Made by a program: the position numbers and the translations under genes. A stretch of 22,516 bases of DNA from a virus: IMG/VR virus record IMGVR_UViG_3300042691_020318, positions 1 through 22,516 of that record. One strand, 5' to 3'. The notes below the pieces were generated by a model. That model saw nothing but the letters and a program-made list of their open reading frames with translations, did not search any database and was not told where the DNA came from. Shown one piece after another: positions 5,501-22,516 of the stretch; the first letter of the stretch is position 1, and the number at the start of each line of letters is the position of its first letter.

Positions 5501-5629
5501 TTGGCCAACACTGTTTTCATGCCAGAGTTAGTGCGAGATTCAGGCGAGGTGTTATATATACAGAACAGTACTGCAATCACTCGCACTGCAAACAATCAAG
5601 AACAAATTAAATTCATAATTGAAGTTTAA
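2567..5629 (+). CDS. T4 gp8-like baseplate wedge protein with long repeat-rich C-terminal extension
   Basis: A 1020-residue protein; ATG at 2567 with a weak GGA seven bases upstream. The first ~150 residues follow the layout I recall for T4 gp8: an aromatic strand with FAGKSSAW (about 17-27), a helix, then ALPR, a VFKCIDNANGAPSTVEP segment, and DGYTWRYLYTIG (about 129-140), comparable to gp8 VYRCLD and DGYVWEYLFEI. Many marine T4-like phages have this kind of protein, usually annotated only as a virion structural protein. T4 gp8 is about 334 residues and forms part of the baseplate wedge; here some 850 further residues follow, rich in Val, Thr, Ser, Asn and Gly and containing short beta repeats with a V-x-G-(T/S)-F core. 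It lies between another baseplate-type gene and the DUF4815 gene, which fits a wedge role. The homology call is from memory of gp8, not from an alignment. Confidence 0.75.
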   Translation: MLTDFKEYLRNNTKQLFYVFAGKSSAWANEASPTAANVSLQALQNDVYHNLLFGKRLTDSDVAYALPRVTYNVSAQTVYSNYDITANNNLGSYTITSNNHVFKCIDNANGAPSTVEPSFPSTIPFKTSDGYTWRYLYTIGTNDSNKFSTATFVPITTNNSIANSAVPGPVEFISVSNGGSSYSAYHTSNIVSVINSTAIVIANTASNTTNIYKDSSIYIRGNYGTSQVVKIASYDGAAKIVSLTSPLALRLQLDINANTYSGIIAAGNRLTQETLVGTIATHIGEPSAGDTIVFYDNDGNYSNATIVDASTTTIRMNRVPEANGAAFDSDYAWRIGAGVAQSGTVSVANATTLNVTGTSTTFTTAVSVGNYIRISNRVRRVASITNNTLLATDIAFGNAFTSNAWIKETSAGYFSNVEVQTANATVEAADINSYLITLGSITGSFTTGEQVMQTNNTSVTAYGTVTYANTTKLYVSNTQGSFVSTVNVVGSSSNATATIATNGNGYVYIESTPRIIANSATGNWYSGKAFTYDGNVAVGNVTVVTFKNFPDQTFAYSISPTVVITGDGSGAAAYSVINTSSNSVYSVVVTNSGSNYTFANATILANTLYGSNASLSVRLGPLSGSGVDVARELGTNAYIITATFGNGYNEGYAFPINGSYRTVGIISDPSFANLSFTISSFLRKRLTLTNLSGSFTLNEIVYQPNTAAAGIVVSSNTTTVDIDRISGTFISSTANDNIKGMISSVTANVTAVTNVVFSVSNTSQVIAQDVTDATATPTAANTTVLTVTNVHGLFLSSNSTLTANDIAAGARAAVYDSTTNTYALISSIGSSRRPTNFTPNSFTQLARITLTGVVGTFTNNEMVTQASQTGNGYVYNTLDRDLQISSVSGTFVIGDKIIQNTSSANAVVISSNSTHLKLTDVNGTFQVGNTIATVGGSGASANVANIFNVLQLYNVSGNFVVGSDVITGATSNATGTPSLANTVFMPELVRDSGEVLYIQNSTAITRTANNQEQIKFIIEV
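3586..3792 (+). repeat. Beta-module copy 2 of 3 (GTVSVANATTLNV type)
   Basis: This segment of the gp8-like protein reads SGTVSVANATTLNVTGT, then TTFTTAVSVGNYIRI, then VASITNNTLLA. It matches the modules at 197-400 and 7366-7600 in order and spacing of the conserved Gly, Thr and Asn residues. Confidence 0.6.
3893..5470 (+). repeat. Recurrent V-x-G-(T/S)-F beta repeats, spacing often exactly 34 codons
   Basis: The motif (V/I/L)-x-G-(T/S/N)-F-x-x-x-(G/N)-(E/D) recurs. Its Gly codon begins at 3893, 4004, 4643, 4745, 4940, 5129, 5231, 5333 and 5435. The steps 4643-4745, 5129-5231, 5231-5333 and 5333-5435 are each exactly 102 bases. Between motifs a Val/Ser-rich strand and an S-N-(S/T)-T turn recur. 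The regular period suggests a stack of small beta domains. A single related copy (MGTFYMGESVYQ) is in the next gene near 10267. Confidence 0.7.
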
Positions 5630-5635
5630 GGTAAA

Positions 5636-8600
5636 ATGGGCTTAGATACTAATTTAAACACGCCACCTTTCTATGACGACTTTAACGCTAATGATAATTT
5701 TTATCGTGTGTTGTTTCGTCCTTCTGTGGCAGTACAGACTCGCGAGCTCAATCAAGCCCAGTCTATTCTACAAGATCAGGTCGAAAAGTTTGGCCGTCAT
5801 GTCTTTAGAGACGGGTCTGTAGTCGAAGGTTGCGCTTTATCCTTTGATTCAGATTACTCTTACTGTAAACTACAGGATGCATACTCAAACGGAGTATCAC
5901 TAACTGTATCAGATCTTATGGGTAAGCGTATTGTAAACTCTTCAAATCTAGTTAGTATTGTTGTTAATTATGCTGACGGTCTAGTATCACAGTCACCTGA
6001 TCTTAAAACAATCTTTGTCAAGTATCTTAATACAGGTACATACGGCAATGGTTCTCCACAATCAGCATATACCGCAAATGATGTATTAACAATTCAGTCA
6101 AACACTGCACCTTACATTAACCTAGGCACTGTATCTGTATACACCACTAATGATTCTATCGGTACTGGTTATGCTCTCTCTACTTCAGAGGGTGTTGTAT
6201 TCCAGAAAGGTTTCTTTGTTCGTGTAGAGCCTCATACTACTATCGTTTCAAAATATTCTAATCAACCAAATGGTATTTTTGTTGGGTTTAAAACATCTGA
6301 ACAGATTATCACTTCTGATATCGATCAATCTCTACTTGATAATGCTGCAGATGCACCAGGCGCAGGAGCTCCGGGTGCGCATAGACTGAAGTTGACTGCA
6401 AATCTTGTTATTCGTTACGCAAATACAACTACTTCAAATACTGACAACTTCTTCTCTATCGTTGATTTTTATGATGGTGGCCCTTCAGCTATCAGATCTG
6501 ACCCAGCCTACGCAGCGCTTGGCCGTGAGCTCGCTCGCCGTACGTATGAAGAGTCTGGCAACTATATAATCAATCCTTTCATTATAACTTCAAACTCTTC
6601 GACATCAAATACTCAGCAGCTTAATGTAAATATCGATGGCGGTCTGGGTTATATTATGGGCTACCGTGTTGAACAGCGCGGCCGCCGAAGCATCAGTGTA
6701 TCAAAAGGTATTGATGTCAACTACGTTAATAACGAAATCGTAACTGCTACTGGCGGCAACTATTTACTAGTCAACGAAATTGGTGGTAAGTTTAATTTTA
6801 AGAATCTCGTTAACATTTCACTACGTTCAGCGTATGCAAATGGTGTTGATTCAGCAGCAAATACATCTAACCTAATTGCTATTTCTGCACCTGGTTCTGA
6901 AATCGGTACAGCTACTATTAAGTCTATTGAGCACGATAGTGGAACATATGGTGATGCAAACGCCGTATTTAAGCTATACCTAACTAATATCAAAATGACT
7001 TCTGGCCAATCATTTGCAAACGTTAAATCAGTTTATACTAGCACCGGTGGTATTGGATTTGCTGATGTTACAGCTGCGTCTGATAATACGGTTCTGTCAG
7101 ATAGTAACTTTGGTAAGCTAGTCTTCAAACTAGGTCGTACAGCTATTCGCGATCTACGTGACGTTGCTAATAATAACCTATCTACTTTTGTGTATAAAGC
7201 ACAGAAAGATATTACTTTCCAGACTAACGGCACTGCAACATTCTCACCAGATGCTGGCGCTACAGGTGGTACAGAAACATTCCCGTATTCGGTTGGTGCT
7301 CTTTCTTCTGCTCAGAAGCAAGAAGATTGGATCGCGGTCGCGACTGCAACTGGTCGATCAGCAAATCTAACCGGTACAATTGCGATTACAGCTGGCCAGA
7401 CAAACGTAACAGGTACAAGCACAACATTCGCGTCTGATTTTTCAGTAGGTGATTGGATTCTGGCTAGCCAGTCAGTAACACCTGCAGAAGAAGAATATAG
7501 ACGTATCGTATCTATTACTAATAACACATTCCTTACAGTATCAGCAGCATTCACATATGCGCACGCTGCAGGTAATACATACGCTCAATATATTCCAAAC
7601 GGTGCTTGGTTTAATCTGCATTCGCGTTCAAACACCACTGTTAATATAACATCTTCAACCGCTGCTAGAATTGATCTAAACAAAACATACACTGGTACTA
7701 TACCAGCTACTGTTTATTTCCCACTACAGCGTGCAGCTGCTTCGCCGCGCACAAAGACAGTTAACAAGACTCGTTACGTAAAGATTGATTGCTCTAATAA
7801 TGCAGCAAACTCAGTAGGTCCGTGGTGCCTTGGTCTACCAGACGTTTATAATGTAGCTGGCGTCTACGTTGGTAATTCTGTCACAGGTTACGTAGAAACA
7901 AATACAGATAGAACATCAGCTTTTGAGCTTGATCCAGGTATGAAAGATGATTATTATGATCTTTCATACCTTAGAATTAAGCCTGGCTCAGGCCTGACTC
8001 TCAATTCCGTCTCGCGCGTGCTTGTAAAGCTTAACCACTTCACACATTCAACAGCGACGGGTGCAGGATTCTTTGACGTTGAATCGTATCCAGTAGACGA
8101 TGCTAATACAGCTAACGTTTCTGCTATTACTACTCAAGAAATTCCTATCTTTAGATCACCTTCAACTACAGAAGTTGTTGATTTAAGAGATGCAATCGAC
8201 TTTAGACCTACAGCTGCAAACACAGCTGTATCAACTAACGTTATCGCATCTGCTACTATTAACCCATCGACTACAACAACGTTTACAGTAGATTCGTTTG
8301 GTTCTTACGTACCACGCCCTGATACAAACTTCTCAACAGCATTTTCATACTACCTAGGTAGAAAGATGAAGTTGTACATTGATTCACAAGGCGTTGTTTC
8401 GACATCAAATGGCGTACCAGGATCAGTTACACCTCCGGCAGAACGTGAAGGTTCGCTAACCATTGCGACACTAACACTACCCCCTTACCCAACTCTGTCT
8501 CAGACAGAAGCTCGTACGTACAGTAGACCAGATTACTCTATTAATATTGATATTCCAAAGAACCGTCGCTTCACAATGCGTGATATTGGCGTGATTGATG

Positions 8601-11494
8601 ATCGTGTTAATAGACTTGAATACTACACCAGCCTATCTCTTCTCGAAAAGACTGCTGCTGATCTATTGATTGTTAATGCGTCTGGTGCTGAGCGATTCAA
8701 GAATGGATTCTTGGTAGATCCGTTTACTGGGTTTGATATCTCTGATACTGATAATTCAGAGTTTAATATATCTATTGATAAGAATAAAACAGAAATTCGT
8801 CCTGTTACACGCAGAACATATGTCGACATGGTGTACTCAAATACGCTGTCAACAAATACTCAGCTGACAGGCGAGATGGTAACACTACCATACACTTCTA
8901 ATTCTTACATTAATCAACCGTTTGCGTCAAAGGCACGCAACTGCGTTGAAAACATCATCTGGCAGTGGAAGGGTAACGTAATACTTGATCCTTCTTCTGA
9001 TACCACACCTGATGTTCTAATTGGCGCTGATGTTATTGTTGCTAACCCAGGGTTAGCTAACTGGACTTCAAACACTATTGCTAATACATGGGCAACAGCA
9101 TGGGGTGATTGGCGTGTAACATCAACGGGTCTGTTTGGTAATCCTAATGGATTTACACCAAACACTACTACATCTGATGTTGCAACTAGATCTTCTGTGT
9201 CAGAACAGCTTAGAAACAGTACAGCTCTAAGCAGCCAGGCTGTGTTTACTGACGGTGAGTTTATAGATGATATCTCGATTCAGCCGTTCGTGCGTGCACG
9301 TCTAGTGCGCTTCCATGGTGTCTCGATGAAGCCTAACACGCGCGTATATCCATTCTTTGATGGTGTTAATGTATCTGTATACTGCACACCGACAAATTCA
9401 AGTTACGTAGCAACTGGCTCAATTAATGGTACACTTACAACTGATTCAAGCGGTAACGTTTACGGAACCTTTATGATTCCTGCCAATACATTCAAGAGTG
9501 GCACTCGCCTGTTTGTATTAGCGGACGTTACAGATATTAGCGCTAGTGTACCTACAACCGTATGCTCAGCACAATATATCGCATCTAACCAGCTAATCAC
9601 TCGTCACAGAATTCGTGTACCTGAGGTAGCACAAACTACAACAAATCCACCTGTGGAAGAATTCACAGACCTTGGAGGTAATGGTAGTGGTGATGGTGGA
9701 GGAGGTGATGGTGGCGGTGGCGGTGATGACCCAATCTGTCAGTCATTCTTCATTAATGAAATGCCTGGTGTAATTTCAGGTGTACATATTTCAAAGATCG
9801 ATGTATTCTTCCAGGCAAAAGACGACGTCTTTGGTGTAGAAATGCAAGTACGTGAAGTAGAGAACGGGTTCCCTACAACACGTATCGTACCGTTCGGTAG
9901 AAAGCTTCTACAGCCATCTGAAGTAAATATCTCTGCAGATGCATCAGCAGCTACAACCTTTGAATTTGATTCTCCTCTCTTTCTTTCTTCAGACAAAGAA
10001 TATTGCTTTGTTGTAAAGCCGGTTGGTAATTGCCCGAACTATTGGATCTGGGTTGGTGAGCTCGGTCAGCCAGACGTAGCATCTGGTGTGCCAATTTACG
10101 ATAACAACTCAACTGGTGTTCTATTTACATCATCAACAAATCGTGTATGGACTCCATTCCAGACAGAAGATATCAAGTTTAACATCTACCGCGCAACAAT
10201 GTCATCTGCAGTAGGTAATGTTGTCTATACCAACCGCGATGCGGAATACCTAACCGTTGCTAACACAATGGGTACATTCTACATGGGTGAGAGTGTATAT
10301 CAGTCTAATAACGTAGTTAGCCCTAATGCAACATCAACCAACACATCTACAATTGTTGCGGTTGGTAATGCATCAGCTAATGCACAGACAGCATTTAGCA
10401 CAAACACTTATGTCTATCTGATTGGTTCAAACACAGCCAAGGTTAAGGTCGTATCATCTGTACCAAACACAACGCACATTGTTCTAACAACCAACGCAGA
10501 AGTAAATTCATCTAATGATGGTATGCTAGGTGTGTTGCGTGGTAATGGTAATCTAACCGCGAAGTTTGATTACATTGATACCTCAAACACTAAGGTAAAT
10601 CTTATCGATACAACAGCAAACAGCACTGTAACATTTACTACTGGTACATACCTAATTGGTGGTACGTCTGGTGCATATGCAAACATCTCTTCTATTGATA
10701 ATATTACATATTCTGTTGTTGTACCTCAATTTGGAGAACTTCTACCTGCGCAGGCACAAATTGCATGGAACATGAAGGGTTACTCAAACAGTGGCACGCA
10801 GGATAGTGCATGGCGTAGAGTAACACTAGATAATGAATCAGAACTATATGATTACATGCGTCTTGTATATTCACGCTCGAATGAGCTTAATTCACTAAGC
10901 GGTAATAAGTCACTACAGATTCGTGGTGACATGTATACAAGCAACGTAAAAGTTTCACCAATCGTTGATAATGTTAGATCTACAGTCCTGGTTATTGAGA
11001 ATCTGATTACTACATCTTCAAATACAACCGGTGAAGACACAACTACTGGTACAGCAATTTCAAAGTATATTTCTAAGAAAGTTGTACTAGCTGACGGTCA
11101 GGATGCAGAAGATCTTAAAGTCTACATCGCAGCATATCAGCCTTCTGGTACAGCTGTGCGCGTATTCTGTAAGCTACTTCATAACGATGATCCAGAAGCA
11201 TTTGATAATAAGGCTTGGACAGAGATGACCAATCTGTCGACAGGAATTTACTCTTCTGTTACAGATCCAACAGATCTAAGAGAATTTGAGTATGGTCTAC
11301 CATCAACAAATGCTACTGCAACATCAGCATTCCTTAATGCTACAAATTCAAATATTGTAAAGTATACAAGCGCTGATGGTTCAGTATATAATGGTTACAA
11401 GACGTTTGCGATTAAGTTAGTTCTTCAGTCAGATACAGGACCTCATATCGTACCTCGCGTTGGTGATCTACGAGCAATCGCCGTTCAGGTGTAA
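5636..11494 (+). CDS. DUF4815-type giant virion structural protein (baseplate/tail)
   Basis: A 1952-residue protein starting at ATG 5636, six bases after the previous stop, with a short TAAGG just upstream. The N-terminus (NFYRVLFRPSVAVQTREL, then QSILQDQVEKFGRHVFRDGSVV) is the hallmark of the DUF4815 family in marine T4-like phages. Other family landmarks follow in order: RFTMRDIGVIDDRVNRLEYY at about 975-1000, KPNTRVYPFFDGVNV at about 1235-1255, a Gly/Asp-rich linker at about 1347-1365, a CQSFFINE...IDVFFQAKDD domain after it, and a C-terminal domain with KYISKKVVLADG near 1810. It carries one GTIAITAGQTNV module near residue 577 and one GTF-type repeat near 1545. The family's exact position in the virion is unknown to me; the gene order suggests a baseplate or fibre-attachment part. 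It is longer than most family members I recall. Confidence 0.88.
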   Translation: MGLDTNLNTPPFYDDFNANDNFYRVLFRPSVAVQTRELNQAQSILQDQVEKFGRHVFRDGSVVEGCALSFDSDYSYCKLQDAYSNGVSLTVSDLMGKRIVNSSNLVSIVVNYADGLVSQSPDLKTIFVKYLNTGTYGNGSPQSAYTANDVLTIQSNTAPYINLGTVSVYTTNDSIGTGYALSTSEGVVFQKGFFVRVEPHTTIVSKYSNQPNGIFVGFKTSEQIITSDIDQSLLDNAADAPGAGAPGAHRLKLTANLVIRYANTTTSNTDNFFSIVDFYDGGPSAIRSDPAYAALGRELARRTYEESGNYIINPFIITSNSSTSNTQQLNVNIDGGLGYIMGYRVEQRGRRSISVSKGIDVNYVNNEIVTATGGNYLLVNEIGGKFNFKNLVNISLRSAYANGVDSAANTSNLIAISAPGSEIGTATIKSIEHDSGTYGDANAVFKLYLTNIKMTSGQSFANVKSVYTSTGGIGFADVTAASDNTVLSDSNFGKLVFKLGRTAIRDLRDVANNNLSTFVYKAQKDITFQTNGTATFSPDAGATGGTETFPYSVGALSSAQKQEDWIAVATATGRSANLTGTIAITAGQTNVTGTSTTFASDFSVGDWILASQSVTPAEEEYRRIVSITNNTFLTVSAAFTYAHAAGNTYAQYIPNGAWFNLHSRSNTTVNITSSTAARIDLNKTYTGTIPATVYFPLQRAAASPRTKTVNKTRYVKIDCSNNAANSVGPWCLGLPDVYNVAGVYVGNSVTGYVETNTDRTSAFELDPGMKDDYYDLSYLRIKPGSGLTLNSVSRVLVKLNHFTHSTATGAGFFDVESYPVDDANTANVSAITTQEIPIFRSPSTTEVVDLRDAIDFRPTAANTAVSTNVIASATINPSTTTTFTVDSFGSYVPRPDTNFSTAFSYYLGRKMKLYIDSQGVVSTSNGVPGSVTPPAEREGSLTIATLTLPPYPTLSQTEARTYSRPDYSINIDIPKNRRFTMRDIGVIDDRVNRLEYYTSLSLLEKTAADLLIVNASGAERFKNGFLVDPFTGFDISDTDNSEFNISIDKNKTEIRPVTRRTYVDMVYSNTLSTNTQLTGEMVTLPYTSNSYINQPFASKARNCVENIIWQWKGNVILDPSSDTTPDVLIGADVIVANPGLANWTSNTIANTWATAWGDWRVTSTGLFGNPNGFTPNTTTSDVATRSSVSEQLRNSTALSSQAVFTDGEFIDDISIQPFVRARLVRFHGVSMKPNTRVYPFFDGVNVSVYCTPTNSSYVATGSINGTLTTDSSGNVYGTFMIPANTFKSGTRLFVLADVTDISASVPTTVCSAQYIASNQLITRHRIRVPEVAQTTTNPPVEEFTDLGGNGSGDGGGGDGGGGGDDPICQSFFINEMPGVISGVHISKIDVFFQAKDDVFGVEMQVREVENGFPTTRIVPFGRKLLQPSEVNISADASAATTFEFDSPLFLSSDKEYCFVVKPVGNCPNYWIWVGELGQPDVASGVPIYDNNSTGVLFTSSTNRVWTPFQTEDIKFNIYRATMSSAVGNVVYTNRDAEYLTVANTMGTFYMGESVYQSNNVVSPNATSTNTSTIVAVGNASANAQTAFSTNTYVYLIGSNTAKVKVVSSVPNTTHIVLTTNAEVNSSNDGMLGVLRGNGNLTAKFDYIDTSNTKVNLIDTTANSTVTFTTGTYLIGGTSGAYANISSIDNITYSVVVPQFGELLPAQAQIAWNMKGYSNSGTQDSAWRRVTLDNESELYDYMRLVYSRSNELNSLSGNKSLQIRGDMYTSNVKVSPIVDNVRSTVLVIENLITTSSNTTGEDTTTGTAISKYISKKVVLADGQDAEDLKVYIAAYQPSGTAVRVFCKLLHNDDPEAFDNKAWTEMTNLSTGIYSSVTDPTDLREFEYGLPSTNATATSAFLNATNSNIVKYTSADGSVYNGYKTFAIKLVLQSDTGPHIVPRVGDLRAIAVQV
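7366..7600 (+). repeat. Beta-module copy 3 of 3 (GTIAITAGQTNV type)
   Basis: Within the DUF4815 protein: LTGTIAITAGQTNVTGTS, then TTFASDFSVGDWILA, then VSITNNTFLTVSAAFT. It is the closest of the three to copy 1, sharing AIT-x-GQTNV. See the entries at 197 and 3586. Confidence 0.65.
9675..9731 (+). other. Gly/Asp-rich interdomain linker
   Basis: About 19 codons almost entirely Gly with some Asp, Asn and Ser, lying between the fibre-like middle part and the CQSFF domain of the DUF4815 protein. It probably acts as a flexible hinge. At DNA level it is a short GGT/GGA/GGC run and so prone to length change. Confidence 0.6.
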
Positions 11495-11700: not shown

Positions 11701-12858
11701 ATGTCCGTTGTAATTACCCCGATTGATGTTAGTAATACATCGTTTACTTTCGGCTCTTGGGTTGCAAAAACAAACACTATTATCGATTTCATATCATCTA
11801 ACGCTGTATCGCTAGATTCAACTTCTGGTGGTTCTGTTACAACAGGTAATGGTGTAGTTAATGGAGTCTTCTCTATTACTACATTAGGTGTTTCTACCCT
11901 GCGTGGCGGTAACGTATCAGCTTCTGCGCCGATGAATGTAACCACTAATACAGTGTTTATTAACGGTGCAAATACAACACTATCTGTTAATAATGATGTA
12001 GTTACTAGTAACGTCGCGACCAGAATTAACAGCACACTAACAGTAACATCGGTTGCTAATCTACAATCTACTTTAAATGTTAATGGTGCAGTTAATGTTA
12101 CAAACAGCGTAACTGTTAATGGCACACTAACTGGTAATGGCGCAGTAACATTTACTACTACACTAGCAGTTAATACTTCTGTTACTGTCGGTAATTCTAC
12201 CGGTAACGTAGTTATTAATAGCACTGCTATCAACATTGGCGGTAATATTATCAACAGCACATCTTCTGGTTCTTCTGCAGATATTTCTGCAAACTCGATT
12301 ACAGTTGGTGCTAACGTCAATATGAATACGACGTCTACGCGCGTCGGCAATTCAACAATAATTGGCGATAGAGTTACTGTTGGTAATTCTACTGTTAACA
12401 GCTTTGTCACTCAAACTAGTTTAGTTACTGGTAATACAACAGCTAACCTTACTATCAATTCAACTACATTGCGCGTAGGTAATTCAAGCGTTAACACTGC
12501 TATTAATACATCGTCAATTACAACCTCTTCGGTTATTGACGGTATTGGTAATGTAAGAGATATTCCACAAAATCCACAGACAACAAGCTATTCATTACTT
12601 GTTACTGATGCTGGCAAACACATCTCTATTACAACTGGCGGTGTAACTGTACCAGCTAGCGTATTCTCTGTCGGACAAACAATATCAATTTATAATAACT
12701 CCGGTAGTGATCAGACTATCACTCAAGGTGGAAGCGTTACTTTAAGATTTGCTGGTACAGCAAACACAGGTAACAGAACATTAGCACAATATGGTTTAGC
12801 TACTGTTCTATGTGTTGGAAGCAATATATTTGTGATTTCTGGAGCAGGTCTATCTTAA
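11701..12858 (+). CDS. Tail fibre protein with VGNST repeats and a conserved C-terminal domain
   Basis: A 385-residue protein; ATG at 11701 with AGGA at 11686-11689. The N-terminus (MSVVITPIDVSNTSFTFGSW, then KTNTIIDFIS) is a fibre start seen in related phages and probably attaches to the baseplate or another fibre. The middle (about 80-285) is Asn/Thr/Val/Ser-rich, with VGNST, INST and ANV motifs spaced as in a triple-stranded beta fibre. The last ~100 residues, from RDIPQNPQTTSYSLLVTDAG, resemble a fibre-end domain seen in several phages (PQ-(N/S)-x(4)-Y-x-L-x-x-x-D-A-G-K-H-I and, near the end, GNRTLAQYGLATVL). The gp38-like adhesin gene follows directly, so this may be the fibre that carries the adhesin. 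The repeats are close kin of those in the giant fibre at 16759. Confidence 0.78.
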   Translation: MSVVITPIDVSNTSFTFGSWVAKTNTIIDFISSNAVSLDSTSGGSVTTGNGVVNGVFSITTLGVSTLRGGNVSASAPMNVTTNTVFINGANTTLSVNNDVVTSNVATRINSTLTVTSVANLQSTLNVNGAVNVTNSVTVNGTLTGNGAVTFTTTLAVNTSVTVGNSTGNVVINSTAINIGGNIINSTSSGSSADISANSITVGANVNMNTTSTRVGNSTIIGDRVTVGNSTVNSFVTQTSLVTGNTTANLTINSTTLRVGNSSVNTAINTSSITTSSVIDGIGNVRDIPQNPQTTSYSLLVTDAGKHISITTGGVTVPASVFSVGQTISIYNNSGSDQTITQGGSVTLRFAGTANTGNRTLAQYGLATVLCVGSNIFVISGAGLS

Positions 12859-12859
12859 T

Positions 12860-13639
12860 ATGAGTATCATGCAGATGATGCTCGCGGGTAGCTACAGACG
12901 CATCAATTTAACAGTTGCTGCAAATACTCGCGATTACAATATTTTTACACAAGCAGGATCTCCCGCTACTGATGTTGATGTTTACGTAACAGTCAACTCT
13001 GGTATTATAATTGGTTCAACCTCAACAGCTACTCCTGCACTAACGACAGGCAGTGGTTGGACACAACGTTCACGCATCTTTCTAATTAACAATGGCACTA
13101 TCATGGGACGTGGTGGTGCTGGTGGTATCGGTGGTTCTAATGGTAACGGTTTTGGTGGCAGCGCTGGCGGTACAGCTATAGATCTAACCAAAGACATTAC
13201 TATCACTAATAACTCTGCAATTTACGGCGGCGGTGGCGGTGGTGGCGGAGGCGGTGCAAGCGGTTCAAACGCCGGCGGTGGTGGTGGTGGCGGTGGAGCT
13301 GGTGATATTGGAGGTACAGGCGCCGCTGGAGGAACACCAAGCGGAAATGCCGGCGCAGCAGGTACAAGTTCAGGCCCCGGCAACGGTGGAGCGGGTCTTT
13401 CATGGTCGCAATCTAGTGGTGGTAAAAATCCAGTAACTACGTCGGGTGTTTCTGGTGCTGGTGGTAATGGTGGTAGCTTTGGCGCCGCAGGTAGTTCAGG
13501 TACTGCAGCTACAGGTGATGGTACTCTTTTTTCTGGTTCTGGTGGTGGTGCTGCTGGTAAGGCTATTAATTTAAACGGTTACACTGCTACATTTACAACT
13601 GGTGGTACTAACCCTAATGTACTAGGAGCGATCTCGTAA
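12860..13639 (+). CDS. Glycine-rich receptor-binding adhesin, T2/S16 gp38-like
   Basis: A 259-residue protein; ATG at 12860, one base after the previous stop, with a distant AGG. An alternative ATG lies three codons in. After ~70 N-terminal residues comes IFLINNGTIMGRGGAGG, then a Gly-rich block with runs of ten (123-132) and eight (139-146) Gly residues, and a C-terminus reading GGAAGKAINLNGY ... VLGAIS. T2-type gp38 has, as I recall it, LNIGNVTMYGRGGNGG, then RINNGGAIAGGGGGG, then GGAAGAAVIG ... NVGAIY, and is about 260 residues, so order, motifs and length agree. In that family the Gly-rich part forms a polyglycine-II helix bundle whose loops bind outer-membrane receptors. The N-terminus does not look like T2 gp38, so it may dock on a different fibre. 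Confidence 0.78.
   Translation: MSIMQMMLAGSYRRINLTVAANTRDYNIFTQAGSPATDVDVYVTVNSGIIIGSTSTATPALTTGSGWTQRSRIFLINNGTIMGRGGAGGIGGSNGNGFGGSAGGTAIDLTKDITITNNSAIYGGGGGGGGGGASGSNAGGGGGGGGAGDIGGTGAAGGTPSGNAGAAGTSSGPGNGGAGLSWSQSSGGKNPVTTSGVSGAGGNGGSFGAAGSSGTAATGDGTLFSGSGGGAAGKAINLNGYTATFTTGGTNPNVLGAIS
13226..13560 (+). repeat. Polyglycine-II-like Gly-rich block
   Basis: Codons for long Gly runs broken by short Ala/Ser/Asn/Pro loops (SGSNA, TPSGNAG, SWSQSSGGKNP, FGAAGSSG). In gp38-type adhesins the loops between Gly runs are the variable receptor-contact segments. The run of GGT/GGC/GGA triplets also creates long open frames in other phases that are not genes. Confidence 0.65.
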
Positions 13640-14691: not shown

Positions 14692-15780
14692 TTGCGTGTA
14701 ATTGATTACGCAGCTACAAAAGTTGCAGAAATTGGTTTTGATTTAAAATTAATTGATGATAATGAGTTGTTATTTTTAAAAAATACCGCTCATCAATTCT
14801 CACAGATTGATCGCACATTAAGTTTTAATATAGGACCTAACGCGACACCTTTGACAAAACTACCAACAGGTGTTGAGAAGCGCTCTTTGGAAGAAATATG
14901 TAATGAAGCTGCGCGCGACCTAATATCCTTAAACGACAATCTAAGCGTATACTGGAGTGGAGGAATAGACTCCACGTTAGTATTGATATCTCTGCTAAAA
15001 AATAACATAGATATCAATAAGTTAACAGTCGTGTTATCATCGTTCTCAATAGCAGAATACCCAGATTTCTACAATGAATTTATACGAGATAAGCTTAAGG
15101 TTCGTAAAGTAGGAGCTTCTATATTCTCGCATATGAATCCTGAAGAGATTATAGTAACCGGAGAGCATGGCGATCAGATTTTCGGCTCAGATAATATATT
15201 TCTATATGAAGATTTAAATCGTTTCAAAGACGTCTATACAGATTCGTGGGAAGATGGCATTATTTTACGTACAGGTGTTAAGAAATCTGTTGAATATATT
15301 GAACCATTAATTCGAAATGCACCGTTTAAGATTAAGAACGCATTTGATTTGTACTGGTGGTATAATATTACATGCAAATGGCAGCATGTACAGCTTAGAA
15401 TGTCATCACATTACACAAAAGAACAAATGCCTTTATATTTTAAAAACGTCAAACATTTTTATAATACAGATGCTTTTCAGCGGTGGTCATTAAATGAAGA
15501 TAACCACCGTAATTTAAAATGTCGTGATACTATAACCTCCTATAAATTTGAAGCAAAACGTATCATTCGTGAATTCACTAAAGATACTGCATACGAACAG
15601 AATAAACTTAAACTAGGATCATTACCTACGCATGTGGGTAAACCTTATCTTGTTCTTCTTGAAGATTATACGCGAATTTTATGCGATGCAGATAAGTATC
15701 GACATAATTTCTCAGCTGAAAAATTCAGAGAAGAGAACGGGTTCGAGTTTAAGGATTTATTCAATCGTGATAGTAAATAA
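14692..15780 (+). CDS. Asparagine-synthetase-like ATP pyrophosphatase lacking the glutaminase domain
   Basis: A 362-residue protein starting at TTG. Residues 89-95 (SGGIDST) are the PP-loop that binds the ATP pyrophosphate, and residues 156-167 (TGEHGDQIFGSD) match the S-G-E-G-x-D-E-(L/I)-F-G motif of the AsnB synthetase domain. In that family this domain adenylates a carboxylate, and ammonia, or another amine in relatives such as beta-lactam synthetase and lasso-peptide cyclase, then forms an amide. The N-terminal Cys-nucleophile glutaminase domain (normally ~200 residues) is absent: only ~70 unrelated residues precede the synthetase core. The enzyme would thus need free ammonia, a partner, or a different amine. 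The C-terminal part is rich in aromatic and basic residues (FDLYWWYNITCKWQHVQLRM) and may define the substrate. Its 3' end overlaps the cupin gene by 14 bases, so the two are probably translated together. Confidence 0.8.
   Translation: MRVIDYAATKVAEIGFDLKLIDDNELLFLKNTAHQFSQIDRTLSFNIGPNATPLTKLPTGVEKRSLEEICNEAARDLISLNDNLSVYWSGGIDSTLVLISLLKNNIDINKLTVVLSSFSIAEYPDFYNEFIRDKLKVRKVGASIFSHMNPEEIIVTGEHGDQIFGSDNIFLYEDLNRFKDVYTDSWEDGIILRTGVKKSVEYIEPLIRNAPFKIKNAFDLYWWYNITCKWQHVQLRMSSHYTKEQMPLYFKNVKHFYNTDAFQRWSLNEDNHRNLKCRDTITSYKFEAKRIIREFTKDTAYEQNKLKLGSLPTHVGKPYLVLLEDYTRILCDADKYRHNFSAEKFREENGFEFKDLFNRDSK
15751..15755 (+). promoter_or_regulatory. AAGGA ribosome binding site for a GTG start
   Basis: AAGGA lies 11 bases before GTG 15767 inside the end of the synthetase gene. 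The in-frame ATGs further up (15632, 15686) would overlap that gene by 95-149 bases and have no clear site, so GTG 15767 is preferred. Confidence 0.5.
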
Positions 15781-16405
15781 TGATGAAAAGTACTTTTTAA
15801 ACGGGCATGCATGCGAAAAGATTAATCGCACTAGAAGTATTAAAGGTCCATGCACTGCTTTTGGTGTGGTCTTAAACGATAAAGCGATTATTAACGATCG
15901 TAAAATAGTATCTCCTAATGAGTATTTCTGCATAGGAGTATCAGAAGGTGAAGAGCTTTTAATTACTACATGGCCAACAACTATAGTAGCACTCTTTACA
16001 GTTAGAAACTACGTTAGAAAAAATAATGTGCTAGCTGGTACCTGGAATGAGCTCAGGGGTGATCAGCTTTATATTGACGGTTGTACTGATACACTTCTAA
16101 TCTGCCCATCTAAGCTTGGTGATCCGTGTCTTAATGCGTTGTATGTTGAGCCAAACACAACTCAGACAGAACATACGCACCCTTCATTACGCTTTGGAGT
16201 GATTGTAGCAGGTGCAGGCTCTATGTTTAAAGAAGGTGTAGAATATAGTCTGCTGCCCGGAACTGTATGGGTTATAGAACCCAATACTAAGCACTATTTT
16301 AAAACAGCTGATAAAATGTTAACTACCATAGCTTATCACCCAGATAGTGATTGGGGCCCGACAGATCAAGTACACCCCATGCTAAATAAAACAAATATCA
16401 TATGA
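15767..16405 (+). CDS. Cupin-fold protein
   Basis: A 212-residue protein if started at GTG 15767 (14-base overlap with the upstream gene); longer versions from ATG 15686 or 15632 are possible. Residues ~128-180 form a cupin: EHTHPSLRFGVIVAGAG (metal-type His at 136 and 138) and LLPGTVWVIEPNTKHYF (third His at 176). In the usual motif H-x-H-x(3)-E-x(6)-G the Glu is replaced by Arg here, so metal binding would use three His residues or be lost. The first ~110 residues (SPNEYFCIGVSEGEELLITT) could be a diverged first barrel, making a bicupin; this is a weak inference. Cupins range from sugar epimerases to oxygenases and binding proteins, so the reaction cannot be named. Coupling to the synthetase suggests a shared pathway. 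Confidence 0.72.
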   Translation: MIVNNDEKYFLNGHACEKINRTRSIKGPCTAFGVVLNDKAIINDRKIVSPNEYFCIGVSEGEELLITTWPTTIVALFTVRNYVRKNNVLAGTWNELRGDQLYIDGCTDTLLICPSKLGDPCLNALYVEPNTTQTEHTHPSLRFGVIVAGAGSMFKEGVEYSLLPGTVWVIEPNTKHYFKTADKMLTTIAYHPDSDWGPTDQVHPMLNKTNII

Positions 16406-16425: not shown

Positions 16426-16758
16426 GTGGCTGTTAAACTAAACATCACTATTGATCAGGGTTCAGACTTCTCTGTTAACCTAGATCTCACTAATGAAACA
16501 ACTGAACAACCTATTGACTTAACAGGTTACACTGGACGAGCACAGTTTAGAAAGAGTGTATACTCAACAAACTCAACTAGTTTTGGAGTAAATCTCGGTG
16601 GTAACACTGGCGTGCTTACACTATCTTTACCAGCAGCATCAAGCTCAAACGTGTATCCAGGTCGATATCTTTATGATATTGAAATAGTATCTCCATCAAA
16701 CACTGTAACACGTGTGGTTGAAGGTATAGTAACAATTACTCCGGAGATTACCAAATAA
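16426..16758 (+). CDS. Small BppU-like virion structural protein (110 aa)
   Basis: GTG start at 16426 with a strong AAGGG at 16413-16417, eight bases away. The sequence (KLNITIDQGSDFSVNLDL, then PIDLTGYTGRAQFRKS, then YPGRYLYDIEIVSPSN and a final VEGIVTITPEITK) is a single beta-sandwich typical of a small protein found beside fibres in many tailed phages; the fold resembles the N-terminal domain of BppU/DUF2479 baseplate proteins. It is probably a virion component linking a fibre to the baseplate. It ends directly before the giant fibre gene (TAAATG), so the two are co-translated and may act together. Confidence 0.72.
   Translation: MAVKLNITIDQGSDFSVNLDLTNETTEQPIDLTGYTGRAQFRKSVYSTNSTSFGVNLGGNTGVLTLSLPAASSSNVYPGRYLYDIEIVSPSNTVTRVVEGIVTITPEITK
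16743..16747 (+). promoter_or_regulatory. GGAGA ribosome binding site for the giant fibre
   Basis: GGAGA, again within ACTCCGGAG, lies 11 bases before ATG 16759. Both genes preceded by ACTCCGGAG begin ATGAGTAAT. Confidence 0.55.
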
Positions 16759-19700
16759 ATGAGTAATACGAATATTCGTGTAACATTATCTTCTCCGACT
16801 CCAATCGCGATTAAGTCATCAGGTGGCGTTGTAACCCTCTCTCAGCTGAATGATGTTAATGTTGCCTCAAAGACAGACGGTCAAGTTCTAACCTATTCAA
16901 ATGGAATGTGGGTTGCTGCAGATGTAGGGTCATTCTCTATCAATACAGCAGCTGCTATTGCTGTCAGTAACGGACTTTCAAAAGCTGATTCTGGTTCTAA
17001 CACTACAATCTCGATTAATGACACTACTGTTACACCAAATAGCTACGGTAACTCTACTCATTTTCCTACGTTTACGGTTAATCAGCGCGGCCAGTTAACT
17101 GCTGCTGGCACCCAAGCTGTACCAAATACTGGTACAACGTATGTTATTGGCACATCATCAAATACTTCTAGCGCGAACGTCCGCTTAACTGACGCAGCAA
17201 ATACGAATACTGATGTTAAGTTTATTGGTGCTGGTGGCACAACTGTTACATCGAACGGTACAGTCATCACTATTGAATCGCAAACAACGAGCGATAATAA
17301 TACAATTTACGATCTATCTGTATCCGCTAACGATACGATAGCTAATATTACATTAACCGGTAACGATAGCACAACAGATGTAGTTAGAGTGACTGGTAAT
17401 GGTGCTGTAAATGTTAGCTCAAATGCTACGCATATTATCGTAACAGCCCCTGTCGTAACAGATACAGATACAACTTACACTATTAACACTCCTGCGAATA
17501 CAACTGCAGGCGCTAATGTAAGATTAACATCTTCTGGTAATGCTAATACAGATGTAAAAATTATCGGTGCAGGAACTGTAAACGTACAATCAAACGGTTC
17601 AGTAATTACTGTCACGGGAACTGGTGGTACTGGAACTACTTATGATTTTGCGCTGGGTGCTGCAAACACCACAACCGCTAACTTAGCATTAATTGGTTCT
17701 GATGCATCTAATGATGTGATCCGTATTACTGGTAATGGTATTGTTAACGTTAGCTCTAATGCGACACATATCGTTGTATCTGCACCAGCGCCAACCGACA
17801 ATAATACGACTTATGATTTAACACTTGGCGCTGCTAACACAACAGTAGCAAACATCGCTCTATCTGGATCTGATTCTTCCAACGATGTAATTAGATTTAC
17901 AGGTAATGGCGCTGTAAACGTCATCTCGAATGCTACACACGTCATTGTATCTGCTCCAGTAGTTGTAGATACCGATACAACATATACACTCGGATTTACA
18001 CAGAATAATACTAGTGCAAACGTACGTCTGACTTCGTCTGGTAATGCTAATACAGATGTAAAGTTTGTCGGCACTGGTCTAGCAACTGTTAATTCTAACA
18101 GCTCTGTAGTTGCTGTACATGTACCAGCACCAGCTGATAATAATACAACATATGATCTAACGCTTGGCGCTGCGAACACAACTGTCGCTAATTTAACATT
18201 AGTAGGCTCAGATGCAACAAATGATCTGGTAAGATTTACTGGCAATGGTGCTGTAAATGTTATTTCAAATGCTACGCATGTTATCGTATCTGCTCCCGTT
18301 GTAACAGATACCGACACAACGTATACAATTTCTGCAGTCACTACAACCGGCGGTGCAAACGTACGCCTGACTTCATCTGGTAATGCAAACGACGATCTAA
18401 AGTTTACTGGCACTGGTACAGTAACAGTAACTCGTACAGATGTAGATACAATTACTATTGACGGCGCGGCGGCAGTCTCTGCTCCTGGCGGTGCAAACAC
18501 GAATATTCAGTATAATGATTCTGGTGCACTTCAAGGTGCTGCAGGATTTACATTTGATGAAACTACAAATAACGTAACTCTTGCAAATACATTTACAGCT
18601 GCAACTATTAATGCTACACTAGGCGCCAACGTTGGCGCTAACGTATTAATTAATACTTCTAGTATTTTTGTTGGCAACTCAACAGCTAATCTAACTACAA
18701 ATTCTGGTTCAGTCGTAGTAGCAAATAGCACTAATACTGCAACTCTAAATCCTGTTAGCTTGACTATCGGTACAACTGTAGCTAATACAACTGTTGTACA
18801 GGCAGCTAATATTAACTCTACCGGTAATATTAACGGCGTATCGGCTATAATGACGACTAGCGCTAATGTGGGAGCTAACGTCTCTCTTTCAACAAGCGCG
18901 CTTAATATCGGTAATTCTACAGCGAACGCTGTTACTCAAAGCACATCTATTACTGTTGCAAACACAACAAACACTGTTACAATTAACCCTATCAGCGTCA
19001 CTATTGGTACTACAGTAGCTAACACAACAGTTGTTCAGTCAGCAAACATCAACTCAACAGGTAACGTAAACGGCGTGCAGGGTGTATTCACTACAGCTGC
19101 TAACGTCGGCGCTAACGTTTCTCTATCTACATCTAGAGCATTTGTAGGAAACTCAACTGCTAACGCTGTTGTTCAATCTACATCAATTGCAGTCGCAAAC
19201 AGCACTAATACAGCAACCCTGAATCCTATTAGTTTAACTATCGGTACTACAGTTGCAAACACTACTGTAGTGCAGGCAGCAAATATCAATTCGACAGGCA
19301 ACGTTAACGGTGTCAGTGTTACAGCTACTACTTCAGCAAATGTCGGTGCCAACGTAAATCTCTCAACATCTCAACTGTTTATTGGTAACAGCACTGTTAA
19401 CGCAGTTGTTACTCAATCAACTGGAGCGTGGACCAACAGCACAGTTAATACGCAGGTTACTATTGGTTCTGTAGCAGTTGCTAACTCTACTCTAGCATCT
19501 AATCTACAAAACGGCCAGTTAAATATTGGTGCTAATAGCATAATCAATACAACAGCTGTTTATGAGGGTAACTCAACAGTCAACGCTGTCATGAGACAAG
19601 CGGGTCTTGTAGTTGCTAACAGCACTATCTCCACTAATGTACAGACAGGCGCTATTAATATTGGCGCTAACAATAATCTAAATGCGACTGCACACTTTAT

Positions 19701-22516
19701 TGGTAACTCAACTGTAAATACTAATATTTCTGCGACAAGCATTGCTGTTGCAAATAGCACTAATACAGCTACCTTAAATCCTGTCAGCTTGACTATTGGT
19801 ACTACTGTAGCCAACACAACTGTTGTACAATCTGCGAATATTAACTCAACAGGCAATGTTAACGGTGTATCTGCAGTTATGACGACTAGCGCAAATGTCG
19901 GCGCTAACGTCAGCCTAAGCACAAGCCAGTTAAACATTGGCAATTCAACTGTTAATTCAGTAACTACACAGTCAAGTGGCGCGTGGACTAACTCTACCAC
20001 AAATACTCAAGTTGCTATTGGCTCTGTTGCTGTAACTAACTCAACCGTATCTGCAAATATGCAGATTGGTCTGGTTAACGTTGGTAATTCAACAGTTAAT
20101 GTTGTTGTCAATAGCAGCGCAGTAGCCATTAATACGATTAATGCCGCTACAGTCGCAAACCGCACTCAGGTAGCAAATAATAATACACTGGTTGGCACAC
20201 GTGGTAGATTAAATCTAATTCAAGGTACTAATATTACACTTGAAGCTTCTGACGATTCTACTGGTGGTCAGATAAACGTAATTATTAATAGTTCAGGTGG
20301 TGCGTCAGTCGGCGGCTCCAACACACAATTACAGTTTAATGATTCTGGTGTAGCAAATGGCTCAGCTGGGTTTACATTTGATAAGACAACTAACAATGCT
20401 ACCGTAGGTAACACTCTAACAGTTCCAGTAATGAACGCAACTACTGGTGCAAATGTTGGTGCAAATGTTAATATTACAACCTCTGCTGTTCAAATTGGCA
20501 ACAGCACTGTTAATACTAACATTTCGGCAACAAGCCTGGCTGTAGCAAATTCGACAAATACTGTTACGATCAATCCAGTTAGTGTTACTATCGGAACAAC
20601 CGTTGCTAATACGACTGTTGTTCAATCTGCTAATATCAATTCGACAGGCAATGTTAATGGTGTTAGCGTTCTGGCAACAACTTCTGCTAACGTTGGTGCA
20701 AACGTAAGCCTATCAACTAGTGCATTAAATGTAGGTAATTCAACTGCAAATGCAGTCCTGCAATCGACTTCAATGACGGTTGCAAACACAACTAATACAG
20801 TCACGATTAATCCAATCAGTGTTACTGTTGGCACTAGCGTAGTTAATACGACTGTAGTACAAGCTGCAAATCTTAACTCGACTGGTAACGTTAATGGTGT
20901 TAGTGTTGTCGCGACAACTTCTGCTAATATTGGCGCCAACGTAAATCTTAGCACATCAGCTCTATTCATTGGCAACTCAACAGTTAACGCTGTAGTTAAT
21001 CAAACAACAGGCGCTTGGACTAATTCAACTGCAAACACTCAAGTAACTATCGGTTCTGTTGCAGTCGCTAACTCTACAGTTGCGTCTAACCTACAAATTG
21101 GTCAGCTAAACGTCGGCGCAAATTCTGTTATTAATACAACAGCAGTCTACGAAGGTAACTCAACAGTTAATACTGTTATGAGGCAGGCGGGTCTTGTAGT
21201 TGCTAACAGCACTATATCTACTAACGTACAAACAGGCGCTATTAATATTGGTGCAAATAACAGTCTGAATGCTACAGCACATTTCCTTGGTAATTCGACT
21301 GTAAATACAAATATTCTTTCGACGAGTATTGAGGTTGCAAACAGCACTAACACTGCGACACTGAACCCAACTAGTCTGACAGTAGGTACGACTGTAGTTA
21401 ATACTACTGCAGTTCAGTCTGCAAATATTAACTCTACTGGTAATGTTAACGGTGTTTCTGCAAACTGGACTACTAGCTCACTAGTTGGCGCAAACGTTAT
21501 TGCAAATACAACAGCAGTGTTTGTCGGCAATTCTACAGTTAACGCTGTAGTTAATCAGACAACTATTACGATTGCTAACAGCACGATTACTAGCAACCTG
21601 CAAACAGGCCAGCTGAATATTGGTGCAAATTCCGCGGTTAACTCTACTGCTGTATTTACAGGTAACAGTACAGTTAATGCTATACATAATCAGGCTGGTA
21701 TCGTTGTAGCAAATTCAACGATTTCTACAAACGTACAAACAGGTGCGATTAACGTCGGCGCTAATAATAATCTAAACTCTACAGCACATTTCATCGGCAA
21801 CTCATCTGTAAATACTATTACATCTCAAGCAGGTTTGGTGGTTGCTAACTCAACTGTGCAAACCAACGTACAGATTGGTCTAGTTAACGTTGGTAATTCA
21901 ACAGTTAATGTTGTTGTTAATAGCTCAAGTGTTTCAATTAATGGTACAAACGCTGCAACTCTAAGCAATAGAGATTCAGTTGCAAATAACAACACTCTGA
22001 TCGGAACACGCGGCCGAATCAACTTTATTCAGGGAACAAATATTACTCTGAATGTATCAGATGATTCTGGTGGCGGACAGGTTAATGTTCAAATTAGTGC
22101 TTCTGGAGGTGGAACTCCTGGAGGAGCGAATACGCAAATCCAGTATAACGATAGCGGAACATTTAATGGTTCGGCAGGCTTCACTTACGATGAAGTTTCC
22201 AATAATGTTACTGTTGGAAACACATTAACTGCTGCGATTGTTAACGCTACAACTGGTGCTAACGTTGGTGCTAACGTATTACTAACAACATCGCAAGTAT
22301 TTGTCGGTAACTCTACCGCAAATGCGGTTCTGCAAAGTACTTCCTTTGCAGTTGCAAATTCAACAAATACAGTAACAATCAACCCAATTAGTGTCACTGT
22401 CGGAGCATCGGTAGTTAATACTACTATTATTGCAGTTGGTGCTAATAATCAGTTGAATGCAACTGCACATCTTATTGGTAACTCGACTGTTAATACAGTT
22501 ATTAACAGTACTTCGA
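16759..22516 (+). CDS. Giant repeat-built tail fibre protein, 3'-truncated by the window
   Basis: ATG 16759 directly follows the previous stop. I read this frame without a stop to the last base, so at least 1919 residues are encoded and the end lies outside. Residues 1-125 form a fibre head: LSQLNDVNVASKTDGQVLTY and NSYGNSTHFPTFTVNQRGQL are patterns common at the start of phage fibres. Next come eight ~56-residue units (17134-18483), then super-repeats from 18487, 20311 and 22120, each starting GG-(A/S)-NT-x-(I/L)-Q-(Y/F)-NDSG; the two complete ones end GTRGR(L/I)N(L/F)IQGTNIT plus a Ser-Asp-Asp-Ser segment. The super-repeats contain no Cys and few charged residues, and are dominated by Asn, Thr, Ser, Val and Ala, as expected for a trimeric beta-helical shaft. 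Probably a long host-recognition fibre whose receptor-binding tip lies beyond the window. Repeats related to its own occur in the fibre at 11701. Confidence 0.88.
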   Translation, partial: MSNTNIRVTLSSPTPIAIKSSGGVVTLSQLNDVNVASKTDGQVLTYSNGMWVAADVGSFSINTAAAIAVSNGLSKADSGSNTTISINDTTVTPNSYGNSTHFPTFTVNQRGQLTAAGTQAVPNTGTTYVIGTSSNTSSANVRLTDAANTNTDVKFIGAGGTTVTSNGTVITIESQTTSDNNTIYDLSVSANDTIANITLTGNDSTTDVVRVTGNGAVNVSSNATHIIVTAPVVTDTDTTYTINTPANTTAGANVRLTSSGNANTDVKIIGAGTVNVQSNGSVITVTGTGGTGTTYDFALGAANTTTANLALIGSDASNDVIRITGNGIVNVSSNATHIVVSAPAPTDNNTTYDLTLGAANTTVANIALSGSDSSNDVIRFTGNGAVNVISNATHVIVSAPVVVDTDTTYTLGFTQNNTSANVRLTSSGNANTDVKFVGTGLATVNSNSSVVAVHVPAPADNNTTYDLTLGAANTTVANLTLVGSDATNDLVRFTGNGAVNVISNATHVIVSAPVVTDTDTTYTISAVTTTGGANVRLTSSGNANDDLKFTGTGTVTVTRTDVDTITIDGAAAVSAPGGANTNIQYNDSGALQGAAGFTFDETTNNVTLANTFTAATINATLGANVGANVLINTSSIFVGNSTANLTTNSGSVVVANSTNTATLNPVSLTIGTTVANTTVVQAANINSTGNINGVSAIMTTSANVGANVSLSTSALNIGNSTANAVTQSTSITVANTTNTVTINPISVTIGTTVANTTVVQSANINSTGNVNGVQGVFTTAANVGANVSLSTSRAFVGNSTANAVVQSTSIAVANSTNTATLNPISLTIGTTVANTTVVQAANINSTGNVNGVSVTATTSANVGANVNLSTSQLFIGNSTVNAVVTQSTGAWTNSTVNTQVTIGSVAVANSTLASNLQNGQLNIGANSIINTTAVYEGNSTVNAVMRQAGLVVANSTISTNVQTGAINIGANNNLNATAHFIGNSTVNTNISATSIAVANSTNTATLNPVSLTIGTTVANTTVVQSANINSTGNVNGVSAVMTTSANVGANVSLSTSQLNIGNSTVNSVTTQSSGAWTNSTTNTQVAIGSVAVTNSTVSANMQIGLVNVGNSTVNVVVNSSAVAINTINAATVANRTQVANNNTLVGTRGRLNLIQGTNITLEASDDSTGGQINVIINSSGGASVGGSNTQLQFNDSGVANGSAGFTFDKTTNNATVGNTLTVPVMNATTGANVGANVNITTSAVQIGNSTVNTNISATSLAVANSTNTVTINPVSVTIGTTVANTTVVQSANINSTGNVNGVSVLATTSANVGANVSLSTSALNVGNSTANAVLQSTSMTVANTTNTVTINPISVTVGTSVVNTTVVQAANLNSTGNVNGVSVVATTSANIGANVNLSTSALFIGNSTVNAVVNQTTGAWTNSTANTQVTIGSVAVANSTVASNLQIGQLNVGANSVINTTAVYEGNSTVNTVMRQAGLVVANSTISTNVQTGAINIGANNSLNATAHFLGNSTVNTNILSTSIEVANSTNTATLNPTSLTVGTTVVNTTAVQSANINSTGNVNGVSANWTTSSLVGANVIANTTAVFVGNSTVNAVVNQTTITIANSTITSNLQTGQLNIGANSAVNSTAVFTGNSTVNAIHNQAGIVVANSTISTNVQTGAINVGANNNLNSTAHFIGNSSVNTITSQAGLVVANSTVQTNVQIGLVNVGNSTVNVVVNSSSVSINGTNAATLSNRDSVANNNTLIGTRGRINFIQGTNITLNVSDDSGGGQVNVQISASGGGTPGGANTQIQYNDSGTFNGSAGFTYDEVSNNVTVGNTLTAAIVNATTGANVGANVLLTTSQVFVGNSTANAVLQSTSFAVANSTNTVTINPISVTVGASVVNTTIIAVGANNQLNATAHLIGNSTVNTVINSTS
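17134..18483 (+). repeat. Eight tandem ~56-residue beta units of two types
   Basis: Units begin at the TTY/TIY codons at 17134, 17302, 17470, 17635, 17806, 17977, 18145 and 18316, with a spacing of 165-171 bases. Type A (units 1, 3, 6, 8) has ANVRLT...N-(T/D)-D-(V/L)-K-(F/I). Type B (units 2, 4, 5, 7) has YDL...D-(V/L)-(V/I)-R and VNV-(S/I)-SNATH. The order is A B A B B A B A. The TTY...ANVRL...D-V pattern is known from fibres of other T4-like phages. Confidence 0.75.
18487..20310 (+). repeat. Fibre super-repeat 1 (608 codons)
   Basis: Starts GGANTNIQYNDSG, contains four 79-residue-type units (VAN(S/T)TNT... anchors at 18721, 18958, 19195, 19750; the first steps are exactly 237 bases), two GAWTNST units and shorter VGNST pieces, and ends with GTRGRLNLIQGTNIT at about 20194-20238. 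Confidence 0.75.
20311..22119 (+). repeat. Fibre super-repeat 2 (603 codons)
   Basis: Starts GGSNTQLQFNDSG and ends like super-repeat 1, but its interior differs: 79-residue-type anchors at 20545, 20782 (237 bases apart) and 21337, only one GAWTNST unit, and extra QTGQLNIGANS / AGIVVANST pieces near 21600-21850. The near equal length therefore hides a different module count. Confidence 0.75.
22120..22516 (+). repeat. Fibre super-repeat 3 (start only)
   Basis: Starts GGANTQIQYNDSG, then GFTYDEVSNNVTVGNTL as in the other two, one VANSTNTVTINP anchor at 22354, and is cut by the window edge. After that anchor it moves to GANNQLNATAHLIGN sooner than super-repeats 1 and 2 do. Confidence 0.7.

Follow-up and report, generated by a model that had tools for sequence, protein, structure and literature searches.

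The window, the whole stretch of 22,516 nucleotides that was analysed, is by its gene content a fragment of a T4-superfamily myovirus genome. On the plus strand, a reading frame that opens at ATG 16759 continues to 22515 and holds 1919 codons with no stop up to the window end, in agreement with the unfinished open frame described in the initial annotation of this DNA. Because the source record in IMG/VR is 22,516 bp in full, and the contig end falls inside this frame, the giant gene is truncated, and its product, of at least 1,919 amino acids, is missing its C-terminus. The genes around it, and the start of the frame itself, are:

5636 to 11494, plus strand: VrlC/DUF4815-type baseplate protein of 1952 aa (PF16075, E=1.4e-52; phrog_358), the left border of the fibre/host-recognition cluster
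11701 to 12858: fibre-like protein of 385 aa with GNST motifs
12860 to 13639: glycine-rich GP38/adhesin-like protein of 259 aa (phrog_2056 and phrog_11439, adhesin/host-specificity; weak match to PF05268, GP38)
16426 to 16758, plus strand: phrog_1084/phrog_3304 gene of 110 aa, L-shaped tail fibre protein assembly-like (phrog_1084, E=4.7e-28; phrog_3304, E=6.1e-23; 117 phage records)
16759 to 16926, plus strand: fibre head, residues 1-56 of the giant frame, a small protein in fused form (profile match; phrog_13853, E=0.003)

Gene order and the fibre head

As in other fibre clusters of the T4 superfamily, a VrlC/DUF4815 gene stands on the left. With the VrlC protein as query, tblastn found 1518 phage records, and the best matches were to Rhizobium, Ochrobactrum, Caulobacter Cr30, Sinorhizobium phiM12, Pelagibacter HTVC008M and Melnitz phages. 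The tail fibres of pelagi- and cyanomyophages are encoded in a hypervariable host-recognition cluster, which is bounded by VrlC and the neck genes (PMC7029224). A matching gene order was found in the cultured Melnitz phages, HTVC008M, S-T4 and DSL-LC03, and this order continues, via tail-fibre genes or directly, to the neck genes in cultured phages that include Melnitz-3. Judged by this order, the giant frame, 3' of the baseplate gene VrlC, stands where fibre genes are placed, and the phrog_1084/phrog_3304 gene, which adjoins the fibre in such clusters, lies directly upstream of the frame. The neck gene (gp13/gp14) that borders such clusters on the right would fall beyond the end of the contig. 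The genes at 11701-12858 and 12860-13639 are likely a separate fibre-plus-adhesin pair. No T4 late-promoter core (TATAAATA) was found in the window. Metabolic-looking genes are also present within the fibre cluster, at 14692-16405: a cupin-domain protein at 15632-16405 (PF07883, E=2.4e-7) is overlapped by a protein of 362 aa whose SGGIDS motif looks, on inspection, PP-loop/asparagine-synthetase-like, and whose one PHROG match, QueC-like, is weak.

In most relatives, the phrog_1084 gene is followed by a small separate protein of about 65-120 aa, typically ending in [DE]GG[TEH][FY], and then by the fibre, usually with an IKR...GELAYS head. In the window there is no such separate gene with this ending, and the frame continues into the fibre. 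A profile was built from 22 stand-alone small proteins, with 500 shuffles as the control. The profile matched the head alone with 26.3 bits (E=2.2e-7) and the full frame with E=1.2e-5, and the best of the shuffles reached 11.5 bits. Since the profile built from these proteins matches the start of the frame, the giant fibre starts with the small protein in fused form; the weak phrog_13853 match agrees with this assignment, and the same profile also matches fused starts in the cultured phages DSL-LC03 of Synechococcus and HTVC008M of Pelagibacter.

Because gene context, composition, head homology and relatives agree, the giant, unfinished fibre gene proposed initially is well supported, and the product of this incomplete gene is very probably a long fibre on the virion of a T4-superfamily myovirus, with a tail fibre as the most likely type. 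A long fibre of the same shaft construction placed on the head, neck or whiskers would fit the partial homologue of residues 41-175 (the region of the head and the 56-residue units), a phage S-CBS2 protein annotated as a 'head decoration protein', and would also fit the border that the fibre cluster shares with neck genes in cultured relatives. However, the gene directly upstream is assigned to a family that resembles tail-fibre assembly proteins, and it is tail fibres that occupy this slot in the group (PMC7029224), whereas the S-CBS2 label is annotation alone and the neighbours of that gene are other structural proteins, with no T4-type fibre cluster, making a location other than the tail unlikely.

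Repeat anatomy of the giant protein

Self-matches of the giant protein were scored against 30 shuffles. The top self-match score was 235, compared with a maximum of 9 among the shuffles, so that the protein self-alignment places the repeats far beyond chance. The best self-matches were at an offset of 529 over 353 aa (83% identical), 608 over 229 aa, 79 over 183 aa, and 603 over 193 aa. Beyond the head, the protein is divided as follows:

17131 to 18477, plus strand: eight ~56-residue TTYxL units (residues ~125-573), read from the sequence, with self-matches at offsets 113, 57, 170 and 282
18487 to 18621, plus strand: first, half linker (residues 577-621, GGANTNIQYNDSG...), corresponding to the second half of the 121-residue linker
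18622 to 20082, plus strand: rung array 1 (residues 622-1108), with 79-residue units at 626-704, 705-783 and 784-862, a 45-residue unit at 937-981, and other rungs
20083 to 20445, plus strand: 121-residue linker 1 (residues 1109-1229), its first 16 residues being a rung; 62% identical in the relative L082
20446 to 21891, plus strand: rung array 2 (residues 1230-1711), with 79-residue units at 1234-1312 and 1313-1391, 45-residue units at 1466-1510 and 1635-1679, and other rungs
21892 to 22254, plus strand: 121-residue linker 2 (residues 1712-1832), with 72% identity to linker 1
22255 to 22515, plus strand: rung array 3 (residues 1833-1919), incomplete at the contig end

The eight ~56-residue units had been recognized in the initial annotation, and they start at residues ~126, 182, 238, 293, 349, 407, 463 and 519. 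These units alternate between two types, which results in a stronger period of ~113. The 79-residue units and VGNST pieces described at the same time were also recovered, both of them downstream of the ~56-residue units. When this downstream part was split at recurrent motifs, the elementary unit was a rung of 13-19 residues (mode 16), and most rungs had 13, 15, 16 or 19 residues. Five rungs, GANVxLxTSxxxI (a, 13 residues), GNSTVNxxxxxxSIxV (b, 16 residues), ANSTNTxTxNPxSxTI (c, 16 residues), GTTVANTTVVQSANI (d, 15 residues) and NSTGNVNGVxxxxTTSANV (e, 19 residues), make up the 79-residue unit in the order a+b+c+d+e (13+16+16+15+19), and the 45-residue unit is 16+16+13. T, N and S account for 44% of the residues in the rung sequence. 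The giant frame is thus one of the fibres with arrays of 13-19-residue GNST/GAN/ANST rungs, referred to below as GNST-rung fibres.

The 121-residue linker has the pattern GTRGRxNxIQGTNIT ... GGxNTQxQxNDSG ..., and anchors of the form GG[AS]NTxxQ[YF]NDSG are found at residues 577, 1185 and 1788, with spacings of 608 and 603. Super-repeats of ~605 residues had been proposed for this protein, and the recurrences 603-608 residues apart are real, but they do not represent one long unit, and the period is the spacing between linkers. Block A (577-1184) contains three consecutive 79-residue units, while block B (1185-1787) contains two, plus extra rungs near its end, and alignment of A with B requires a 79-residue gap in one direction and several gaps in the other. 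The block lengths remain similar, at ~605 residues, because these insertions and deletions compensate. Block C, which is cut off after 132 aa, diverges from both A and B beyond a few rungs. A super-repeat that is a single domain or one long unit was therefore rejected, on the basis of the rung mapping and the gapped A/B alignment, and the ~605-residue blocks are mosaics of small rungs, in which arrays of unlike composition are separated by copies of a 121-residue linker. It is misleading to call repeats of about 600 residues much longer than those of usual shafts, as was done earlier, since the repeating unit is ~16 residues long. A whole 79-residue unit and several rungs distinguish the arrays, and yet the linker distances (608 and 603) are near-equal; selection might act on segment length, although we regard this as unlikely. 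In that case, linkers might, for example, be hinges or docking points, evenly spaced along a fibre made of segments, and rung units might be exchangeable as long as total length stays constant.

Proposed architecture of the fibre

The shaft was compared with known families and structures. No match with a meaningful score was obtained for the shaft in Pfam, PHROGs or PDB, and sequence searches of PDB with the protein and with profiles also gave nothing meaningful. With the truncated product as query, Pfam (E<=1) and PDB (E<=0.1) gave no match to relatives of the T4 long tail fibre (gp34-gp37), and YadA head and stalk families were not detected in the Pfam scan at E<=1. AlphaFold2 monomer models of linker-plus-rungs and of the 56-residue units were poor (pLDDT 52-53), and Foldseek with the 56-residue-unit model returned no match at E<=0.001. 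Nothing specific on such repeats in phage fibres was found in the literature. Triple beta-spiral shafts of the adenovirus/reovirus type are built from 15-residue repeats. A short, beta-prone repeat of similar length is common to these shafts and the giant fibre, and they could work alike, although the PDB searches found no sequence relation, and the comparison is one of repeat length, not fold.

We propose that the N-terminal ~56 residues (the fused small protein) dock the fibre on the virion, and that the 56-residue units, followed by arrays of ~16-residue beta-prone rungs, would build a shaft that is long, thin and probably homotrimeric. The 121-residue linkers would break this shaft into segments, and its length would be set by the number of rung units. 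Contact with the host might be made by the missing C-terminus or by a separate adhesin; the presence of the GP38/adhesin-like neighbour at 12860-13639 means that the giant fibre need not carry a tip adhesin.

The same neighbour (phrog_2056, weak PF05268), together with rungs in which T, N and S are so frequent, would also suit a multivalent adhesin, in which the repeats are the binding surface and rungs and linkers touch host glycans lengthwise, instead of serving as a passive spacer. This arrangement seems rather unlikely, since many fibres whose heads and ends differ have retained the rung pattern, as expected for a structural module, and a shaft built from rungs is the reading we prefer. 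Without a Pfam or PDB match for the shaft at the sensitivity used, the structure of a few rungs and one linker would explain many unannotated genes.

Divergence between copies and relatives of the fibre

To compare the copies at the DNA level, we examined codon use in the repeated segments. The 353-residue pair is 71.6% identical in DNA and 41.6% identical at third positions, and the same codon is used at 123 of the 294 identical residues, compared with 118 expected from the codon usage of the gene (z 0.56). Codon agreement was similar for the other large pairs, and two smaller pairs were at z about 2. The blocks are 69% identical in DNA, the longest exact DNA repeat in the gene is 35 nt, and Tandem Repeats Finder reported just two 12-bp pairs at the DNA level. 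Exact 20-mer pairs numbered 39 in the gene, compared with a mean of 4.8 in synonymous shuffles. Active codon scrambling to avoid DNA repeats was rejected, since exact 20-mer pairs are commoner, not rarer, than in these shuffles; their excess indicates that patches of residual homology remain. These values would be consistent with synonymous sites diverging after unit gain or loss, while purifying selection keeps the protein pattern.

The same comparison bears on the concern, raised in the initial annotation, that the super-repeats are an assembly artefact, with one block duplicated during contig building. A metagenomic fragment that ends within a repeat gene is where such an error might be suspected, but a duplicate would be near-identical in DNA, whereas the blocks differ by whole units, have the low DNA identity given above, and have synonymous codons at chance level in the main pair. 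Identical or related giant rung fibres were also found on other contigs from other metagenomes. Assembly duplication was rejected on the codon evidence, the synonymous sites being saturated between copies, and we consider it extremely improbable.

A scan with block A identified 52 matching loci in IMG/VR. Rung fibres closed by a stop codon in relatives had lengths of 1935, 1725, 1951, 1665, 1490 and 2348 aa, and in the locus L058, a 2146-aa frame lies directly 3' of phrog_1084. Long-range internal repeats were 405 residues apart in L021, 612 in L024, 417 in L043, and 1225 in L058. The GNST-rung fibres of uncultured T4-type myoviruses in IMG/VR (L021, L024, L026, L047 and L065) resemble the giant frame in their rung motifs (GANVxLxTS, GNSTVN...), their T/N/V/A/S-rich composition, their giant size (1665-2348 aa) and their long-range internal repeats, and several have VrlC or phrog_1084 nearby. 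They differ in having other heads and units of 40, 52 or 57 residues, compared with 79 and 45 here, and several retain more synonymous identity between copies, so that they look younger. The same linker, with 62% identity, was found in L082 inside a complete 596-aa fibre after phrog_1084 and a small protein; this fibre shares rungs and gene slot with the giant frame, but it is short, with one linker and an IKR...GELAYS head, and its small protein is separate and not fused. Tail fibres of the VrlC-neck cluster in HTVC008M, Melnitz and DSL-LC03 share the cluster and gene order, and a fused head of the same family is present in HTVC008M and DSL-LC03, whereas the cultured members examined are without a GNST-rung shaft and have few GNST motifs. 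The tblastn search with the shaft against cultured phages gave no match, although the low-complexity filter possibly masks the shaft, so that absence there does not follow.

L024 and L026 are close over most of their length and differ by two 120-residue blocks, each of 3x40 residues, plus smaller changes. Differences of whole units between such close relatives illustrate how phages may alter fibre length, and we suggest that fibre length evolves by recombinational gain and loss of whole rung units of about 40-120 residues. By sequence comparison, many related viruses use the same small building block for giant fibres, and a 600-residue repeat is not exceptional. Taken as a single finding, the gene is ordinary phage biology, and the useful parts are the rung-level anatomy and the head fusion; the anatomy, in which one short rung is built up into units, arrays and segments, is a clear one for a widespread, unnamed class of giant T4-type phage fibres.

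A scan of GTDB gave three weak matches in MAG contigs, L092-L094 (Uhrbacteria, Caenarcanum and Paceibacterota), to the end portion of the encoded fibre, chiefly near the linker; the module may have spread more widely, or phage contigs may have been binned with the MAGs. Two further genes were noted in the fibre clusters of related phages. L082 has, after its fibres, a 1794-aa frame (5487-10871) with RCC1-like 'WGxNxxGQLGxxxxxxRSSPVQ' repeats, which is unusual for a phage fibre cluster, and L008 encodes a DctP-type extracellular solute-binding protein (7850-8836; PF03480, E=1.3e-40) inside its fibre cluster.
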